Shown: piece by piece, positions 273 through 28,814 of the stretch
How positions within the stretch are numbered: the first letter of the stretch is position 1
Layout: each line of letters opens with the position of its first letter
DNA from: a virus
Length of the DNA stretch: 38,008 nt
Strand: one strand, 5' to 3'
Virus record (IMG/VR): IMGVR_UViG_3300033148_003408
Span: 1 to 38,008 of that record
The notes under the pieces: model-generated
What the model saw: only the letters and a program-made list of their open reading frames with translations
Told to the model about the DNA's origin: nothing
Database searches by the model: none
Position numbers and translations under genes: made by a program

Positions 273-1867
273 AAAAAATCAAGGTAAAAATTAAGGCGGA
301 GGATTTGAAAAGGAAAATGCGTATAGAAAACGGGGTTGACGGAATAGACGGAAAAGACGGAAAAGACGGAAAAGACGGGAAAGACGGAATGCAGGGAATA
401 CAAGGAAAAGACGGAATACAGGGAATACAAGGAAAAAAGGGAGAGCAGGGTTCAAAGGGCGAAAGGGGATTTCGGGGTTCTCCTGATACCGGAAAAGATA
501 TAGTAAGAAAGATAAACTATCTCCCAATAGAGAAAGACCTGCTTATAGGCAAGGAACATATTTCCGGCTTAGATGATTACTTTTCTAAACTTACGAGGAG
601 ATTTACTGGATTAGGAAGTCCGGCAGGCGCTTTAAGAATGGACGGAGTAAATAGCCCTATGGCTGATATATCTTGGGGGGACTTTAAAATAACAAATCTT
701 GGAACTCCTACTAATGATGCTGACGCCTCTACTAAGAAATATGTAGATGATGCTGGTATTTCTTTAATAGACGAATTGAATGATGTTGATACAACAACAG
801 ATACTCCAATAACTAACGAAGTTCTAAAATGGAATGGGACTAATTGGGTCCCGGCCGCTTATGATTATACCTTTGCTTTTAGTTTAGCTTCTTTTACAGA
901 TAACGAGGCGATTACCCAACTGATAGGTTCAGGCGTGTGGAAAGCCACAGGAGCTTTAACTTTTGATATTACATATAATAACGGACCTCCGACTTCAGCT
1001 TCAATAGCTTTAACAAGCAATGGAGCTGTATCTTGGGGAAGCGCTTTAGCTTTATCAACTCCTTATTTAACAGTTGATTCATCTGAAAACACTGATTATC
1101 CAAACGCAAAAGACAAATATATTAGATTTACATTAACAGCAGATAAGGGAGCGGAAAACGACTCAGATACAGAAACAGTCACTTTTAGAAACCTTATTTA
1201 CTGGGGTGTATCAACAACAGGAAGTGGTTTTTCAGAAGCAAATGTAAAAGCATTGGCTAATAGCGCCATAAGCGATGACCAAACAAGAAGTATGAGTTTA
1301 AATGCTGGCGCTAATGATTATTTGGTATTCGCTTTTCCTGCTACTTATACATCTATTCCAGACGGAGATGATTATGAAGATGACGGAGCAAGTGGATTTA
1401 AGTTTAATAGTATAGTTTGCGCTTTCCAAGCCCCTGAAACTGTTAGCATAACAAACAGCGCTGGATATACTGAAAACTACAAGGTTTATGCTTCTTATCA
1501 GAAAAATCTTGGAAATCATACTTTAGTAACTACCACTTCCGCCTCGCAGATAAACCCTCTTTATTATGGGATAACAGTTAAAACAGATACTTTTCTTGAA
1601 GCAGATGTTGAAGGATTAGCCAATAATTCTATAACTAACGACAACACGCAAACTTGGAATTCAGTAACCGCAGGAGCTGGTGAGTACCTTTTATTCGCAT
1701 TTCCAAAACGACTGGGAACAGTAACCTTTTGGGTGAGTGGCTTCGAAGGTGGTTTCGAATCACCAGAAACAGTATCAGTAACTAACACAAACGGCTGGTC
1801 AGAGGACTATTATGTATGGAGAAGCACTAATAGTAATCTTGGAGCAACTGTTGTTGAAACAAAATAA
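269..1867 (+). CDS. Tail fibre with collagen-like stalk and duplicated C-terminal domain
   Basis: 532 residues. Positions 22-70 are Gly-X-Y triplets (GKDGKDGKDG, then GIQGKDGIQG), a collagen-like stalk that normally trimerises. Around residues 125-165 lies the common tail-fibre motif in which KITNLGTPTNDADASTKKYV can be read. From about 314 to the end, two copies of a roughly 100-residue domain follow. Each has an ALANxxIxxDxT-like start, a YLxFAFP strand, PETVSxTN, and a final YxVxxSxxxNLG. The duplication suggests two binding or trimerisation modules. The adjoining larger fibre at 1867 begins at the stop codon (TAATG), so the two are co-expressed. Receptor binding is inferred from domain type and position. 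Confidence 0.85.
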   Translation: MKKIKVKIKAEDLKRKMRIENGVDGIDGKDGKDGKDGKDGMQGIQGKDGIQGIQGKKGEQGSKGERGFRGSPDTGKDIVRKINYLPIEKDLLIGKEHISGLDDYFSKLTRRFTGLGSPAGALRMDGVNSPMADISWGDFKITNLGTPTNDADASTKKYVDDAGISLIDELNDVDTTTDTPITNEVLKWNGTNWVPAAYDYTFAFSLASFTDNEAITQLIGSGVWKATGALTFDITYNNGPPTSASIALTSNGAVSWGSALALSTPYLTVDSSENTDYPNAKDKYIRFTLTADKGAENDSDTETVTFRNLIYWGVSTTGSGFSEANVKALANSAISDDQTRSMSLNAGANDYLVFAFPATYTSIPDGDDYEDDGASGFKFNSIVCAFQAPETVSITNSAGYTENYKVYASYQKNLGNHTLVTTTSASQINPLYYGITVKTDTFLEADVEGLANNSITNDNTQTWNSVTAGAGEYLLFAFPKRLGTVTFWVSGFEGGFESPETVSVTNTNGWSEDYYVWRSTNSNLGATVVETK

Positions 1868-4800
1868 TGGCTATTGAACTTATATCAAAAATAGCTCCCA
1901 AAAATGATGGATTTACAGGAATGGTTGATGCCAGCCAAGTTATTGCTGGGACTTTTGGAGCTGGAGAATTTACAATGAATGGAAATCTTGTCTTAGATGC
2001 CGACCCGACAGGAAATTTACACGCTGCCACAAAACAATATGTAGATAATGCTGTTAGCGGTGAAAACTTATGGGATAGAAGCGGAACTATTTTAGAACCG
2101 CATAATGCTGGAGATGATTTAGATATGGGAACAGGAGAAGGAACTTTTGCTGATGCCATACTTACTGATATGGCTTATGGAACTCCAACCTACACTTCTT
2201 TGCGCGACTGGGCGTCTATAACAGAATCATCAGGACTAATATCAGGGGGAGTAATATCTGACGCAGGAGGAGGAAATATAAATGTGACGGCTGGTTGCGG
2301 AATGGCCAAGACGGCGAATACAGAAATAAGCCCTGCATTGTTTGTTGACTTTTCCGCAAGAAATGGAATAGCAATAGCAAATGACGGGAACAGATATACG
2401 GTTTATGTGGATTATGATGCCGCTCCGCAAATTAAGGTGACCAATGACCCTACTACTGACGTAGACCATACAACAAAATTCGCAATAGGTTCTTGTTTTT
2501 ATGACGGAACGACTATGCATGTTCTGAACGAGGCGGGAACAAGGATATACAATGTAGCCCGTAGAGGACATCATAGAGCAAGGAAATTAAGGGGATTTGA
2601 GAGAGCGACTGGATTAGTGACTGCTGACGAGGGAACAAGACACTTTTCAATAACAAACGGAATGATATTCGCAGGGTGGAATGAATTAAGCATTACAGGG
2701 ATAGATACATCTGCCCCAACTTCTGATAATTATACTTCTTGGTATTATGACGGAGATTTAGCTGGCGGAACTTGGGTAGAGAACACAACTAATACTCAAC
2801 TGGATAACGCTCAATATAACGCAGTAGCAACAGGACTGGTTAACTTAACCTCAAACAGATATGGAGTTCACTGGATATTTATGGATGTGGATAACCATTG
2901 TCAAGTGGTTTACGGACAAGGGAATTATACCCTCTCACAGGCGCAGAACGCTGTTGTCCCGTCTTCGCTGCCGCCTCTAATATCAGACTTTGCGATATTA
3001 GTAGCAAGAATAATAGTCAGAGAGGGCGCTGCGGAAATAATTGAATTGGCTACTAATTGGGAAGATGTATTTGTTGCTGGAACCGCGAATAACCATAATG
3101 AATTGGCTGGATTACAAGGTGGAACGGCAGATGAATATTATCATCTAACATCAGCAGAATATGGCGGAAACTGGGGAGCGAAAAATCTTCAAACTACTGG
3201 CGCAATAACAGGTGTAAATGTAACCAGCGGAGCAGACCCTGGCCATACTCATACAGGAGCTTCATTAGGAAGTATAGATATATCAGCAGATACTAATTTA
3301 GCGGCAACAGCCCCGATTATACTAACAGACGATACGCTTTCATTAGATTATGAAGCAACCGATTTTTCAGTAGTCGGAACTACTTTAACAATTACAAATA
3401 GCGGAATAGACCACGATGCTTTGACTAATTATGTCGCTAACAAACATATAGACCATAGCGGAGTTTCAATTTCATCAGGAACAGGATTAACGGGAGGCGG
3501 GGATATAACTGCTAATAGAACTCTTGCTCTTTCACACTTAGGAATAGAGAGTTTAGCAGACCCTAACGCTGATACTCTTATGGGCTGGGACGATACAGAC
3601 GGAGCAATTAAGTTTATAACAATAGGAGCTAATTTAAGCTATGACCACGCTACGCATACTCTGTCTGGTTCAGCAGGAGGTTCAGGCAGTATGACTACGG
3701 TAAAAGAGGGCGGAGTTCAGGTAGGAGGAGCTGATATAGTAACTTTGAATTTTGGGGCAGGATTTGATATAGCGGAAGACCCTAATACAGAAATAAATAT
3801 AACCCTTGATTTTTCAGAAGTAGCTGGCCACGATTTATTTACTGACTTTGTGGCTAACGAACACATAGATTGGACAATAGACCAAGGAGCAACAAATATT
3901 CACGCTGGGAATTATAGTAATACGCAATTAAACGAAGAAGAAGTTAAAGATTTTGCTTGGAATATTGGAGGCGGAACTCAAACCTTGATTACAGTTACTT
4001 ATCAAGACGCAACTAATGATGTGGATTTTGTGGTAGATAACGACCTTTCCCATTATGATAATGCCACATCAGCTTTTATTACAGCTACATTAACGCAAGA
4101 AGAAGTTGAGGATTTCGCTGGGGCAATGGTAGCCAACGCAACAGGAACGCATACTGGGATAGCTATTACTTACCGAGACGCAACAGGAGATATGGACTTT
4201 GTAGTTGACCACGATACAGCGAGTAATTATGTTGCCAACGAGCATATAGACTGGACTGATGCAACCGGAAACGGGCTGAAAATAACAATGGCTTCAGACC
4301 AAGCAACAGCTATATATATTGATGGAACAACTAATGATTTTACTACCCTTGCAAATCCTTATGTAATGAAGATTTACAGGGATATAAACTTTGGAACAGC
4401 AGACCCGCCAAACTCACAGGTTTTAGATTTTAGAATATATATGAAACATGCTGGAGTTCAGCTCGCAGGAAACAGAGAAGCATATTGTTTTTCAAACAAA
4501 TTAATTAATCAGGGAACAGTCAAAAACGCAACTGCTTCTGGTAAATGGTATTACCAAGCAGGGATAGTTAATGAACTTGAAGATACTGGGACTTTTAATT
4601 CAACAAGCAGCGGCTCAATTCTCGGACTTAATTATGGAGGAAGATTTATAATTGATGTTGACAACGAATGGAAAGACGATGGAGGAACATCTCCTAACAA
4701 TACAATGATTAATAGAGGGATTTCTTCTGAGCTTAATATTAATCCTACTTTAACATCAGGGAAACTTATAGTATCAAACACTGCGTTCTTTGGAAGTGTC

Positions 4801-5286
4801 CAGGGAACTGCTACTGGAACTTCTTATGCTATCGGTATGTATTTAGATAAGGTTCAGGGAGCTGACAGCAATTATGGAATATGGGATTCAAGCGGAGCTG
4901 ATTGGTGGCTTGACCAGGATAACCATAAAATAATGTTTGGAGCAACAGATACTGATTTCCAACTTTACTCAGACGGAAATAACGCAAGGATATATTCAGC
5001 GGGAGATGTATATATAACAGCAGGGTCTGGAAAGTTTATAGATTTAGAAAAACCAGCAAGGTATGAAAATGCTTCAACGGCAACATTATTAGCCAATAAC
5101 GCAAGTGTAGCAGTTACATTTCCAACAGCGTTTGCTGGTGGGGTAACGCCAGTAGTAGTGGCAACACCACCTTATCAGACATCTTTCTGGATTAGTGGAA
5201 TAAGCAATACAGGATTTACATTCAATGTAGGAACTACTAATGGATATAACCAAACCATAATGTATATTGCTATGGAAGAAAGCTAA
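1867..5286 (+). CDS. Large tail fibre / host-recognition protein
   Basis: 1139 residues, the largest protein of the phage. The N-terminal 65 residues contain the fibre motif HAATKQYVDNAV, also seen in the preceding fibre. The middle has repeats typical of trimeric phage fibres: DHSGVSISSGTGLTGGGDI near 528-550, and at least three copies of a (V/A)NEHIDWT element joined to DFVVDxD blocks. The C-terminus (VAVTFPTAFAGG, FWISGISNTGFTFN, YIAMEES) resembles the small beta-sandwich or H-lectin-like tips of fibres. No intramolecular chaperone of the S74 type is visible. It follows the first fibre with TAATG coupling and is followed the same way by the glycosyltransferase-sulfotransferase. Confidence 0.8.
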   Translation: MAIELISKIAPKNDGFTGMVDASQVIAGTFGAGEFTMNGNLVLDADPTGNLHAATKQYVDNAVSGENLWDRSGTILEPHNAGDDLDMGTGEGTFADAILTDMAYGTPTYTSLRDWASITESSGLISGGVISDAGGGNINVTAGCGMAKTANTEISPALFVDFSARNGIAIANDGNRYTVYVDYDAAPQIKVTNDPTTDVDHTTKFAIGSCFYDGTTMHVLNEAGTRIYNVARRGHHRARKLRGFERATGLVTADEGTRHFSITNGMIFAGWNELSITGIDTSAPTSDNYTSWYYDGDLAGGTWVENTTNTQLDNAQYNAVATGLVNLTSNRYGVHWIFMDVDNHCQVVYGQGNYTLSQAQNAVVPSSLPPLISDFAILVARIIVREGAAEIIELATNWEDVFVAGTANNHNELAGLQGGTADEYYHLTSAEYGGNWGAKNLQTTGAITGVNVTSGADPGHTHTGASLGSIDISADTNLAATAPIILTDDTLSLDYEATDFSVVGTTLTITNSGIDHDALTNYVANKHIDHSGVSISSGTGLTGGGDITANRTLALSHLGIESLADPNADTLMGWDDTDGAIKFITIGANLSYDHATHTLSGSAGGSGSMTTVKEGGVQVGGADIVTLNFGAGFDIAEDPNTEINITLDFSEVAGHDLFTDFVANEHIDWTIDQGATNIHAGNYSNTQLNEEEVKDFAWNIGGGTQTLITVTYQDATNDVDFVVDNDLSHYDNATSAFITATLTQEEVEDFAGAMVANATGTHTGIAITYRDATGDMDFVVDHDTASNYVANEHIDWTDATGNGLKITMASDQATAIYIDGTTNDFTTLANPYVMKIYRDINFGTADPPNSQVLDFRIYMKHAGVQLAGNREAYCFSNKLINQGTVKNATASGKWYYQAGIVNELEDTGTFNSTSSGSILGLNYGGRFIIDVDNEWKDDGGTSPNNTMINRGISSELNINPTLTSGKLIVSNTAFFGSVQGTATGTSYAIGMYLDKVQGADSNYGIWDSSGADWWLDQDNHKIMFGATDTDFQLYSDGNNARIYSAGDVYITAGSGKFIDLEKPARYENASTATLLANNASVAVTFPTAFAGGVTPVVVATPPYQTSFWISGISNTGFTFNVGTTNGYNQTIMYIAMEES

Positions 5287-6599
5287 TGTGGATAAAGAAA
5301 CCAACATTTCCAAATGAGCCAGAACTTCAAGATGTCTGGGTCAATAAACCAACTTGTGATATTCTAATTAAAAGCTTTGAAAGGTTTGACTGCTTGGAAC
5401 GACTAATCCATTCAATAAAATGGTATTACCCTGATATGCCGATAATAATTGCTGATGACTCAAGAGAGGAAGTCCCAGAATATATTACAAGTATTCCAAA
5501 TGTAAAGGTAATAAAACTACCCTACAATATAGGACTTTCTGCTGGAAGAAATGCTCTATTAAAAGAAAGCAAAGCGGAATATGTTATAAAGTGTGATGAT
5601 GATTTAATTTTTAATGACGAAACAAGAATTGATAAACTAATAGACATTTTAGAGAAAGACAAAGAGGTGGATATTATAGGAGGGATTTGGAGGGCAAACG
5701 GGAAAAAGGCAATTGGTTGGGACGGGAAAATTGAGATAATAAATAAAGGGATTCAATTCAAACCATTAACTTCTAAATGGAAAGTAATTGGAAACACACC
5801 TTACAGGAAGACAGATTTAGTTATTAACTTTTTTGTCGCAAGAAGAGAGAAACTTCCATTTTGGGACGAAAGGTTAAAAATATCAAGAGAACATCTTGAT
5901 TATGATTTAATGCTTAAAGAAAAAAAGGTTAATGTATATTATACGCCCTCTGTAATAGTGGGACATTTACATAAGGGAAATGATTTTTACAAAGAAAAAA
6001 GGTTTGGAGGAAATAAGTATTGGAACGATATTTTTATGAAAAAATGGGGTTTAGAAAGTTCACCCTCATATTCAGCGCAAGAAACTGAAATTAGAGATAT
6101 AAATATATTAAAAGGAATAAAGCCGAATATCGTTGTTCTCGGAGTAGGACATTCCAACACCACGATTACCACAAAACAATTAGGAGTGTTGGGCTGGAAC
6201 TTGAGAGATGCTGACGAGGAATATGCTGAAAGTGTATCTGTGAGAGAGATGAATGACGAGATTTTAAGAACAAAGTTCTTTGACTATGATAAAGCATTAA
6301 GGATTATAGAAAAGTTCCCCCAGCCATGGGCTATAAAAGACCCGAGATTTGCCAAAGGAACACTGCCTTACTGGCGTAAAGTGTTTGAGATTTATAAACC
6401 AATTCTTCTATGGGTAAAGAAAGACAGAGATAAGGTAAGGGAAAGTTATGTTAAAAGAGGCGAGTCGCCCAAGAAAGTTGATTTGTATTTTGAAAACTGC
6501 GAAAGGTATTATGAAAGTTGGAATTATATGAAAATAAGTATAGATGAGGAACAAATACAAGAAGCAATTTCATTATGGAAAAATACTCATTGTTTATAG
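5286..6599 (+). CDS. Glycosyltransferase-sulfotransferase fusion protein
   Basis: 437 residues in two domains. Residues 24-230 are a GT-A glycosyltransferase resembling beta-1,4-N-acetylgalactosaminyltransferases: DILIKSFERFDCLERL, IIIADDS, NIGLSAGRN, a CDDDLIF metal site (DDD 104-106), the acidic site EH 202-203 and GHLHKG at 226. Residues 280-437 look like a sulfotransferase. GVGHSNTT (286-293) fits the 5'-phosphosulfate-binding loop, KDPRF is at 351, and LLWVKKDRDKVRESYVKR at 374-391 fits the 3'-phosphate-binding helix. One polypeptide could therefore add a sugar and sulfate it. The two genes that follow look like PAPS synthesis genes, which supports this. The sulfotransferase call rests on motifs only; the acceptor is unknown. 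Confidence 0.8.
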   Translation: MWIKKPTFPNEPELQDVWVNKPTCDILIKSFERFDCLERLIHSIKWYYPDMPIIIADDSREEVPEYITSIPNVKVIKLPYNIGLSAGRNALLKESKAEYVIKCDDDLIFNDETRIDKLIDILEKDKEVDIIGGIWRANGKKAIGWDGKIEIINKGIQFKPLTSKWKVIGNTPYRKTDLVINFFVARREKLPFWDERLKISREHLDYDLMLKEKKVNVYYTPSVIVGHLHKGNDFYKEKRFGGNKYWNDIFMKKWGLESSPSYSAQETEIRDINILKGIKPNIVVLGVGHSNTTITTKQLGVLGWNLRDADEEYAESVSVREMNDEILRTKFFDYDKALRIIEKFPQPWAIKDPRFAKGTLPYWRKVFEIYKPILLWVKKDRDKVRESYVKRGESPKKVDLYFENCERYYESWNYMKISIDEEQIQEAISLWKNTHCL

Positions 6600-6913
6600 G
6601 GAGATGGCAGTGTATCCCACCACACGCAGGACATATCGCCTTGATTAAGAAAGCCCGTTTCAAACCGCTGATAGCAATAAGGGATACTAAGGTATCAAAG
6701 AAAGACCCCTACACTTATGAGCAGAGAAGAAAAGCATTTAGAAAGATATTTCCAGAAGCCAAGATTATCAAGATTTTTAATATAGGAGAGGTTGTTTACG
6801 GCAGAAAGGTTGGATACGATATAAGAAAAGTTAAACTTTCCAAAGATATAGAAAATATCTCTGGGACAAAAATACGTGATAATTTGGGTAAGAGGAAAAA
6901 GAAAATCGGGTAA
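6575..6913 (+). CDS. Small nucleotidyltransferase, ATP-sulfurylase/NMNAT type
   Basis: 112 residues of the HxGH nucleotidyltransferase superfamily. It has FIGRWQCIPPHAGHIALI with HAGH at 17-20, AIRDT at 34-38, a DPYTYEQRRKAF helix, and ISGTKIR at 95-101, the C-terminal ATP-binding signature shared by ATP sulfurylases and NMN adenylyltransferases. It is far shorter than cellular ATP sulfurylase, so it is a minimal single-domain form. The start overlaps the upstream gene by 25 nt, and the end overlaps the APS kinase gene by 38 nt in another frame. Placement between a sulfotransferase and an APS kinase suggests it makes adenylyl sulfate from ATP and sulfate. A cytidylyl- or nicotinamide-transferase role cannot be excluded. 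Confidence 0.75.
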   Translation: MEKYSLFIGRWQCIPPHAGHIALIKKARFKPLIAIRDTKVSKKDPYTYEQRRKAFRKIFPEAKIIKIFNIGEVVYGRKVGYDIRKVKLSKDIENISGTKIRDNLGKRKKKIG

Positions 6914-7166
6914 AACAACATTGGCAAAAGAATTACAGAGGTTGATGCCTAACTCAATAAACCTTGACGGGGACGAAATGAGGAATAGCATATCAAAGGG
7001 ATTAGGTTTTACAGAGAAAGATAGGTTAGAAAATAATTTAAGGATAGCCCGTTTGGCAAAGGTTTTGGAAAGACAAGGGTTTCCAATAATTGTTTCAACT
7101 ATTTGCCCGTCTTATGTCAAACAAGAAGTTTTTAATATAACAGGTTGTAAGTTTATAGATTTATAA
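6876..7166 (+). CDS. cysC-like: Short adenylylsulfate (APS) kinase
   Basis: 96 residues starting at GTG 6876. Motifs in order: P-loop GKRKSGKTT (7-15), NLDGDEMRNSI (29-39), GFTEKDRLENNLRIA (44-58) and IIVSTICPS (71-79). The LDGDxxR, GFxxxDRxxN and late VSxIxP set is characteristic of APS kinase, which phosphorylates APS to PAPS. Cellular CysC is about twice as long; this one stops at CKFIDL and lacks the usual C-terminal lid region. Short forms may be normal in phages, or it may be truncated. The 38-nt overlap with the upstream nucleotidyltransferase, in a different frame, resembles a split bifunctional PAPS synthase. Confidence 0.8.
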   Translation: MIIWVRGKRKSGKTTLAKELQRLMPNSINLDGDEMRNSISKGLGFTEKDRLENNLRIARLAKVLERQGFPIIVSTICPSYVKQEVFNITGCKFIDL

Positions 7167-8079: not shown

Positions 8080-8429
8080 AACTTACAGAAAAACAATTTA
8101 ACTTGTTTAAGGAAGAGTGTTTGAAATGGCAAGACCGCTTTGAACTTCATAATTGGGATTTACATTTTAGATGGCAGGAAAGTGAAGATGGCAGAGCAGG
8201 TATAAATACTAATCTTGGTAATTATATCGCCACCGCTTTTTTATCAAGAGAATGGGATAATTATGATACAATAACAGACCAAGGTATAAAAATGGTTGCT
8301 AAACACGAAATGATACATCTCTTAATAGCAAGATTAGAAACAGTTGGAAAAGCCAGATATATTAGCGAGGACGAGATGACAGAAGCGGATGAAGAATTAG
8401 TAAGAAAATTAGAATATATTATAAAATGA
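8076..8429 (+). CDS. HExxH metalloprotease-like protein
   Basis: 117 residues from ATG 8076. I prefer this start to the upstream in-frame one because of the ATGA overlap with the preceding peptide. The motif VAKHEMIHLLIARL (74-87) is an HExxH zinc site with HEMIH at 77-81, followed by a Glu-rich helix that could supply a third ligand. Size and motif suit a minimal SprT-like or gluzincin-type protein of the kind found in phages. It overlaps the M23 endopeptidase gene by 4 nt, so a lysis or maturation role is likely. Substrate unknown. Confidence 0.65.
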   Translation: MKLTEKQFNLFKEECLKWQDRFELHNWDLHFRWQESEDGRAGINTNLGNYIATAFLSREWDNYDTITDQGIKMVAKHEMIHLLIARLETVGKARYISEDEMTEADEELVRKLEYIIK

Positions 8430-8986
8430 AATTATTTAGAAGTATCAAGGAAAATTATGTGAGCCAAGGATTTGGCGTAGAAAATACGGCTCCTTCTATG
8501 CTGGAATTTTACAAGAGTTTGGGACTCCGAGGACACAACGGCATAGATTTTAAATGCGAAAACGGCTCCCCCCTCTATTTTAACTGCTATGATTATGAGG
8601 GGCGGGTTATTGAATTATCCCACGATACAAAAGCGGGACTGGGAATTGTAATAGGCATACAAACCCCTGAGGGGTGCTATAAGACGATTTACTGGCACTT
8701 AAAGGACATTGGGGTCAAGATAGGGCAAGTAGTGTCTACGGGGCAGAAATTGGGTCATTGCGACAATACAGGATACAGCACGGGTTCGCACCTGCATTTC
8801 GGTTTGAAACTATGCGACAAAAACTTTAACACAATAAATCGGGGGAATGGCTATAATGGTTGTATCTCACCTGATAAATATCTTACTAATACATATATTA
8901 AGGACATAATGAAAAACCTTTCGGGGCAGAAAAACATATTGGAAAGGATTATTAAACTGATACAGGATTTCTTAAAAGATTTATAA
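8426..8986 (+). CDS. M23 (LytM-type) endopeptidase, probable endolysin
   Basis: 186 residues. The M23 zinc-peptidase signature is clear: HNGID (His37, Asp41), a YWHL strand at 89-92, GHCDNTGYSTG at 110-120 and SHLHFGL with catalytic HLH at 122-124. Such enzymes cut peptide cross-links in peptidoglycan. No signal peptide or wall-binding domain is obvious; the last 50 residues are a basic helix. It follows the HEMIH gene with an ATGA overlap. A holin-like gene lies about 300 bp downstream, which makes this the endolysin of the phage. Confidence 0.9.
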   Translation: MKLFRSIKENYVSQGFGVENTAPSMLEFYKSLGLRGHNGIDFKCENGSPLYFNCYDYEGRVIELSHDTKAGLGIVIGIQTPEGCYKTIYWHLKDIGVKIGQVVSTGQKLGHCDNTGYSTGSHLHFGLKLCDKNFNTINRGNGYNGCISPDKYLTNTYIKDIMKNLSGQKNILERIIKLIQDFLKDL

Positions 8987-27959: not shown

Positions 27960-28814
27960 GTGGCAAACACAATTGGTGATACAGTTTGGCGTTTAAAGTA
28001 TCAAAAAAATACCATTGAGACAGCATTAAGGAATATGCTTGTAGCAGAGAAGATTTGTGATGTTGATAGGTCAGAGGGTAAATATATTAGAAACCCTTAC
28101 GGCACAGCGCCTACAACGGTATTAAAGACAATCTCTGGAACTTATGACGTTTCCGATTTCACGATTACAGACGATACTTTGGACGTAAACTACACATTCA
28201 TTTCCGCAAACCACGTCTACGACTGGGAGGAAACTCTTTCAAACTTTGATATGTTCGCTAATAGGACAGAGGAATTAGCCGCTTCGGTAGCTCAAAGTAT
28301 TGATAAGTTTGTTCTCAACTATATGTGCGAAGTATGTACTGGCGCATATACTACACCAGCAGGAGGTTTCACAACCGCGGCTAACTTAAACGTCATTATG
28401 TCTAACCTTATTTCAAAGGTTTCAGGATATTCTGATGTTTATAAGGGATTATTCTTGGTTCTTGAAAACACTGATATTACAGGCGTTATTCAAGCGCAGG
28501 CGACAAACGGCTTCTCATTCGCAGATGCGGCTCTTAATAATGGATTTTTAACTTCTTATATGGGAGTTGACATCTATGTTGTAAGAGCAGACACATTTGT
28601 TGATGATACTCTGGGAGATTACGCGGTTACTAACGATAATCACAAAGTATTTGGAGTAAAAGGAGTAACGACATATGCCGCGCCAAGAGGAATTCAGTTT
28701 GAGGAAAAAGAAGTAACAGGAAAAACAGGCAAAGAGGTTGTTTGCTTTGGCTATATCGGAGCTAAACTTTGGTACACCAAATTAGCTTTGGTTGTTGATA
28801 TAACACTGGCATAA
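27960..28814 (+). CDS. Major capsid protein
   Basis: 284 residues with GTG start (GGTGGATAAGG before it). Beta-rich with a long N-terminal arm (MANTIGDTVWRLKYQKNTIE). It has NPYGTAPTTVL, VYDWEETLSNFDMFANRTEE and a C-terminal GKEVVCFGYIGAKLWYTKLA. Its position after a scaffold and before a small virion protein fits the coat of a podovirus-type phage with P22/HK97-like fold. No capsid protease gene was found, so scaffold removal may be protease-free. Two hairpins follow its stop at once. Confidence 0.75.
   Translation: MANTIGDTVWRLKYQKNTIETALRNMLVAEKICDVDRSEGKYIRNPYGTAPTTVLKTISGTYDVSDFTITDDTLDVNYTFISANHVYDWEETLSNFDMFANRTEELAASVAQSIDKFVLNYMCEVCTGAYTTPAGGFTTAANLNVIMSNLISKVSGYSDVYKGLFLVLENTDITGVIQAQATNGFSFADAALNNGFLTSYMGVDIYVVRADTFVDDTLGDYAVTNDNHKVFGVKGVTTYAAPRGIQFEEKEVTGKTGKEVVCFGYIGAKLWYTKLALVVDITLA

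Follow-up and report, generated by a model that had tools for sequence, protein, structure and literature searches.

Textbooks present ATP sulfurylase as an entry step into the sulfur cycle, and two unrelated forms of it are known, Sat and CysDN. In PAPS synthase/Sat-CysC and in CysDN-CysC, an ATP-dependent adenylylation, which gives adenosine 5'-phosphosulfate (APS), is followed by a 3'-phosphorylation, which gives 3'-phosphoadenosine 5'-phosphosulfate (PAPS), and the adenylylating enzyme and the kinase are often fused. We propose similar steps for a three-gene cassette in the IMG/VR virus record IMGVR_UViG_3300033148_003408, positions 1 to 38,008 of which were analyzed and are referred to as the window. 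The cassette kinase belongs to the same family as the kinase of these systems, although it is a short form, whereas the cassette nucleotidyltransferase (NTase) is a NadM-like protein of about 112 residues whose sequence is not significantly related to either Sat or CysDN. Phage cysC genes have previously been catalogued and interpreted as assimilatory (PMC10914622, PMC8190135). In the open-access literature (most subscription papers being outside its coverage) we found no paper that ascribes sulfate adenylylation to this NTase, nor any on phage cassettes combining NTase, CysC, and sulfotransferase.

The cassette consists of three overlapping open reading frames (ORFs) at 5286-7166 on the plus strand, with overlaps of 25 nt and then 38 nt between successive genes; the ORFs and motifs are found where a preliminary description, made from the sequence alone, had placed three adjoining, overlapping genes (Table 1). 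Based on comparative genomics throughout, we assign a probability of about 0.73 to the reading that these genes form a sulfation cassette, in which the small NTase would adenylylate sulfate with ATP to APS in place of ATP sulfurylase, and the short APS kinase, as its family and motifs support, would phosphorylate APS to PAPS. The protein encoded by the first gene, a fusion of a family 2 glycosyltransferase (GT2) and a sulfotransferase-like domain, may then add both a sugar and the PAPS-derived sulfate to the same glycan. The last step is the weakest, namely that this glycan would sit on the virion or on the host surface. Still probable, if slightly less so than the cassette as a whole, is the broader proposal that NTases with the motif YGRxVG[YW] constitute an unrecognized family of sulfate adenylyltransferases, far smaller than Sat, descended from an ancestor resembling nicotinamide mononucleotide (NMN) adenylyltransferase, and widespread in phages and Patescibacteria.

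The linkage of NTase and kinase is the first line of evidence. Two alignment scans, from which 80 of 127 and 80 of 236 relatives were kept, yielded 118 distinct viral NTases after removal of identical ones, and in 105 of the 118 an APS-kinase-like gene is fused to the NTase or lies within 1.2 kb of it, in both gene orders. Among 50 viral contigs bearing the pair, the sulfotransferase family PF13469 was matched in 22 (E up to 0.1; 14 over cutoff) and PF00685 in 14 (11 over cutoff). These loci were picked by NTase or kinase and not by sulfotransferase. Of the 24 contigs that have a PF13469 or PF00685 match, 11 have one at most 1.5 kb away from the pair, where 3.2 would be expected (p 3e-5, an optimistic value since some of the contigs are related). 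The neighboring sulfotransferases are diverse, including PF13469, PF00685, and PF03567 types, which suggests repeated recruitment.

The second line of evidence comes from Patescibacteria, which contributed 17 of the 20 loci recovered by a genome scan with the NTase; Sat was missing from 18 of these 20 genomes, and CysD was above cutoff in none. In a sample of 333 Patescibacteria genomes, mostly incomplete metagenome-assembled genomes in which single absences carry little weight, strong NTase matches (>89 bits; weaker matches look NadM-like) were found in 8 genomes and APS kinase in 17. In all eight NTase genomes the APS kinase adjoins the NTase or shares its frame (chance 7e-12), and none of them has Sat or CysN (zero overlap p 4e-4), while among the other nine APS kinase genomes six carry Sat and two carry CysN in the same ORF as the kinase. 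Despite the incomplete genomes, this pattern is consistent. A sulfotransferase adjoins the pair in several Patescibacteria. The NTase fills the genomic place of ATP sulfurylase in these data, with one counter-example genome (G068, discussed below), a larger point which the preliminary description overlooked: by sequence the NTase is no relative of ATP sulfurylase, yet it occupies its place.

Partner swaps are found in both directions. At one locus (L299, genome G395), the kinase domain is nested within the short clade otherwise linked to the NTase (support 100/99, then 91/86), yet its fusion partner is CysN; a CysD-like gene precedes this fusion, and a sulfotransferase gene adjoins it. Reciprocally, in two Moranbacteria (L247 and L250) a 177-residue CysC of the canonical clade adjoins the NTase and a CysQ-type gene of the inositol-monophosphatase family, which, judged by family only, would remove the by-product 3'-phosphoadenosine 5'-phosphate. 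The NTase and canonical ATP sulfurylase thus alternate beside the same kinases, and we regard these swaps as the strongest indication that the NTase would make APS. The preliminary description had already drawn a route through APS and PAPS to a sulfated glycan, which gains support from the linkage (105/118) and the sulfotransferase adjacency (11/24 vs. 3.2), as well as from the exclusion of ATP sulfurylase in the sampled Patescibacteria, the partner swaps, and the near absence of PAPS reductase described below.

Instead of APS, the NTase might make another nucleotidyl donor, such as a cytidylyl or adenylyl phosphoramidate or a derivative of another oxyanion, to which the APS-kinase-like enzyme would add a 3'-phosphate and from which the sulfotransferase-like domain would move the group. 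A model for this is the methyl-phosphoramidate pathway of the Campylobacter capsule, which, like the window, combines a nucleotidyltransferase, an APS-kinase-like enzyme, and a transferase acting on a surface glycan, and APS-kinase-like proteins can use other diphosphonucleotides. The lack of sequence relation between the NTase and ATP sulfurylase fits such a route as well. We nevertheless consider it unlikely, given that one member of this kinase clade is joined to CysN, with CysD alongside, that the NTase and canonical ATP sulfurylase are mutually exclusive in the 333 sampled genomes, and that the neighboring transferases match sulfotransferase Pfam families. Further, the Campylobacter cytidylyltransferase is of another fold class than the NTase, and no evidence of methyl-phosphoramidate chemistry was seen at the window cassette.

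About equally unlikely is that the copy in the window is decaying, i.e., that its NTase and kinase stem from a fusion broken by a frameshift or truncation, or from an assembly error, and that the cassette is nonfunctional as written. The kinase matches PF01583 over cutoff (E 4e-18) and TIGR00455 at E 1e-17 (64 bits, under the curated cutoff of 139), and it retains the residues of the Walker A, DGDxxR, and GF..DR..N motifs, so that the APS kinase which the preliminary description had recognized from GKRKSGKTT, LDGDEMR, and GFTEKDR stands. Its clade is a short one, with lengths of about 96-125 residues and with members that are also found fused to the NTase. The window kinase lacks the full-length C-terminal lid and the YEAP region, the lid being shortened across the clade, and it also lacks the YPYE tail of about 12 residues found in its nearest relatives. 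Its GTG start lies inside the last Arg codon of ISGTKIR, one base in, which is exactly where fused relatives have a linker of 3-8 residues. The junction (6870-6915) may reflect translational coupling, a frameshifted fusion, or an assembly error or indel. While the missing tail, the 38 nt overlap, and the position of the kinase frame favor decay, the window retains the family-invariant residues of both NTase and kinase, and separate, slightly overlapping genes are usual in its closest relatives, L011 and L021.

A role in assimilatory sulfate reduction, by which the phage would raise cysteine synthesis in its host, is the published reading of phage cysC (PMC10914622, PMC8190135), and cysH could come from the host. 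We consider this role very unlikely here: only a single one of the 50 pair-bearing contigs has a PAPS_reduct match over cutoff, and the window has none in a profile search, a near absence which counts against assimilation, whereas sulfotransferases are frequent and adjoin the pair. In five relatives in which a sulfotransferase adjoins the pair (L013, L016, L021, L167, and L168), the major head protein gene lies upstream, and therefore the cassette is within the structural module in these relatives. This position points to late expression, and perhaps to virion glycans.

The NTase is, as the preliminary description had it, a small HxGH nucleotidyltransferase with ISGTKIR, its motifs being GRWQ..PPHAGH, IRD, YGRKVGY, and ISGTKIR. 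It matches CTP_transf_like (E 3e-4) and the C-terminal half of phrog_10255 (E 1e-6), and shares with NadM the HxGH nucleotidyltransferase core; a profile of 24 relatives best matches archaeal NMN adenylyltransferases (1f9a, E 2e-13). Homology to ATP sulfurylase, a candidate prompted by the ISGT motif, was rejected on the basis of the search of the PDB with this profile, and the score against the ATP sulfurylase family PF01747 is 17.7 bits, below the cutoff of 24.3. The family differs from NadM at two sites. The LW..HV segment after the third strand, which we take to be NMN-binding in NadM, is gone, with YGRxVG[YW] in its place, and where NadM has a GS loop after the second strand the family has IR[DN], the Arg of which is present in 144 of 145 relatives; NadM-like Patescibacteria proteins from the same search retain both the segment and the loop. 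Two arginines would suit a small oxyanion, and the family may derive from a shortened NadM-like nucleotidyltransferase whose acceptor site was rebuilt around two invariant arginines. The least probable alternative is NAD salvage by a NadR-like pair of NMN adenylyltransferase and ribosylnicotinamide-type kinase, since, despite the resemblance of the NTase profile to NadM and NadR and the location of the fused pair beside a NADAR-annotated gene in the Casjensviridae phage Bhz60, every profile calls the kinase an APS kinase, the NTase lacks the LW..HV segment that true NadM of the same phylum retain, and the pair is linked to sulfotransferases and CysQ-like genes.

In Bhz60 (L006, 1148-1591) the fused kinase-NTase gene directly adjoins the NADAR gene, and in the 462 kb phage record LR756500 (L004, 3071-3547) a canonical APS kinase gene is immediately preceded by an ORF judged NADAR-like by eye; such neighbors could point to a different use for the kinase in these phages. 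A second NTase subtype (YGRGVGYEIIEH) accompanies kinases of about 140-150 residues (L263, L265, L266, and marine viral loci such as L029, L203, and L228). It is found on viral contigs, where a canonical LPR[SA]GST sulfotransferase often immediately precedes it, and also beside polysaccharide genes in marine bacterial genomes.

The N-terminal domain of the fusion protein is a GT2 domain, with PF00535 over cutoff and a DxD-type motif (DDD) at residues 104-106; it has no assignable sugar, and the label "GalNAc-transferase-like" in the preliminary description is not upheld. It is followed by a C-terminal extension of about 160 residues, whose assignment as a sulfotransferase, also made in that description, holds in part. 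A purpose-built hidden Markov model (HMM) was made from 16 sulfotransferase-family proteins, the window excluded: 14 plasmid proteins (of which about half carry a sulfotransferase annotation and the rest are homologs of these), one from a Pseudomonas phage record, and one from a Wildermuthbacteria genome. Among the window ORFs its sole match is the fusion protein (E 4.3e-7; runner-up 0.06). The match consists of two collinear segments, which span the phosphosulfate loop, YxE...ND.iL (YAES..VREMNDEIL in the window), KDPR, and the 3'-phosphate motif. Against 3,687 proteins, the fusion protein ranks fourth (E 2.6e-5), below two training members of the model and one viral sulfotransferase. Its alignment to the sulfotransferase of the Pseudomonas phage record, one of twelve partners tried, has a z of 5.7, with none of 300 shuffles scoring as high.

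The part of the assignment that does not hold concerns the canonical features. The extension has no match in Pfam, NCBIfam, or the PDB by sequence, its loop has H for the usual R and N for the usual G (HSNTT vs. RSGTS), and K-x7-S stands where R-x7-S, with the 3'-phosphate Arg, is usual; because of this atypical loop and Lys, we refer to the domain as sulfotransferase-like. Single-protein scans of viral contigs with the sulfotransferase-like domain, the whole fusion, or the kinase returned no relatives, and the fusion is therefore without a near relative in the searched collections. A tblastn search of phages and plasmids with the domain yielded nothing usable. The window was missed by a broad HMM of sulfotransferases that had been built up from viral matches and had drifted into kinases in its final rounds, unlike by the narrower, bacterial 16-protein model, and matches of the whole fusion in the 333 Patescibacteria genomes were limited to the GT2 part.

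Table 1. Positions in the window of the cassette genes, domains, and motifs.
Feature	Position	Strand	Detail
Two-domain protein, GT2 glycosyltransferase (N-terminal) and sulfotransferase-like domain (C-terminal)	5286..6599	+	437 aa
GT2 domain, residues 26-150	5361..5735	+	Pfam PF00535 (Glycos_transf_2), E 1.2e-17
Sulfotransferase-like region, residues 281-396	6126..6473	+	purpose-built HMM, E 4.3e-7; pairwise z 5.7
Putative 5'-phosphosulfate-binding loop GVGHSNTT, residues 286-293	6141..6164	+	aligned to GMHRSGTS
KDPR motif, residues 351-354	6336..6347	+	K-x7-S further downstream
Miniature HxGH NTase, putative sulfate adenylyltransferase	6575..6913	+	112 aa
GRWQCIPPHAGH nucleotide-binding motif	6599..6634	+	two-residue insertion common to window and L011
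YGRKVGY family-specific motif	6797..6817	+	G and R invariant in 145/145 relatives
ISGTKIR motif	6857..6877	+	motif alignment
Short APS kinase	6876..7166	+	96 aa, GTG start
Walker A GKRKSGKT	6894..6917	+	motif
DGDEMR ... GFTEKDR, APS-kinase substrate-site motifs	6966..7025	+	motif

Several observations weigh against a sulfation cassette. Among the genomes, G068, a member of the Patescibacteria outside the sample of 333, has an NTase-kinase fusion (L264) together with Sat, so that the exclusion is not absolute, and G129, one of the sampled APS kinase genomes, has neither the NTase nor a canonical partner. Among the viruses, a strict model places a sulfotransferase within 3 kb of only 30 of the 118 NTases, and the closest relative, L011, has the pair with no recognizable sulfotransferase nearby. 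For the NTase, the 24-relative profile retrieved no ATP sulfurylase from the PDB, and a structure model of good quality (predicted local distance difference test, pLDDT, 89) retrieved CoaD-type nucleotidyltransferases in Foldseek, with modest scores. The kinase, lacking one residue of its relatives as well as their C-terminal tail, may be weak or decaying. For the sulfotransferase-like domain, the [RK]SGT[ST] loop and the 3'-phosphate Arg are replaced by HSNTT and Lys, Pfam is blind to it, and its AlphaFold model (pLDDT 47, from a three-sequence input) is too weak for use; the top Foldseek match of this model was a sulfotransferase (E 0.29), in a list that was discarded as unusable.

The window is a phage contig, with genes for TerL (23176-24363) and a major head protein (27960-28814). 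Tail-fiber genes lie upstream of the cassette, at the left end of the window, and an M23 endopeptidase gene (8426-8986) lies downstream, in agreement with the earlier placement of the cassette amid tail-fiber and lysis genes. A 1,139-residue protein (1867-5286) without any PHROG match separates the tail-fiber gene from the cassette. In L011, a calcineurin-like phosphoesterase gene and a phage-exonuclease-like gene (2509-3528 and 3710-4819) lie upstream of the pair. Genes for an APS kinase, a sulfotransferase, a glycosyltransferase, and a histidine-kinase-like protein occur in L005 (OQ572406.1, Pseudomonas phage Y4, an unverified record), which resembles a piece of bacterial chromosome more than it does a phage.

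If the proposed function is true, a third form of ATP sulfurylase would alter how pathways are annotated in Patescibacteria and in phages; many of these currently appear unable to activate sulfate. A large share of phage cysC would then serve glycan sulfation instead of sulfate assimilation, and would belong to the decoration of surfaces or virions, which can bear on adsorption.

Besides Sat-CysC and CysDN-CysC, three groups of known genes resemble parts of the cassette. The phrog_10255 proteins of Casjensviridae and other phages (Stenotrophomonas phages Suzuki, Bhz60, and DLP_6, and Xanthomonas phage AhaSv), whose function is assigned no further than "kinase", likewise combine a kinase and an NTase with similar YGRDVGY and AT.IR motifs, the NTase being 30-35% identical to that of the window; unlike in the window, the two are fused and in the opposite order, and in Bhz60 the gene is beside a NADAR gene with no sulfotransferase annotation nearby. 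Bacterial sulfotransferases with a GMHRSGTS loop have the phosphosulfate loop, YxE..ND.iL, KDPR, and R/K-x7-S in register with the window domain. Fusions of glycosyltransferase and sulfotransferase also have a precedent, in the opposite order: in Paracoccus albus WP_271073705.1, encoded on a plasmid, the sulfotransferase is N-terminal to the glycosyltransferase, whereas the window protein has the reverse arrangement, an HSNTT loop, and a shorter domain. Finally, viral sulfation clusters have already been proposed for giant viruses with canonical Sat/APS kinase: in the Megavirinae, Moumouvirus australiensis encodes a SAT/APS kinase (Ma457) and a sulfotransferase (Ma461) in a glycosylation cluster, discussed in relation to capsid fibrils (PMC10117803). 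These giant amoeba viruses differ from the window in their canonical bifunctional enzyme, and no glycosyltransferase-sulfotransferase fusion has been described in them, but they share with it virus-encoded sulfate activation and a sulfotransferase near glycosylation genes.

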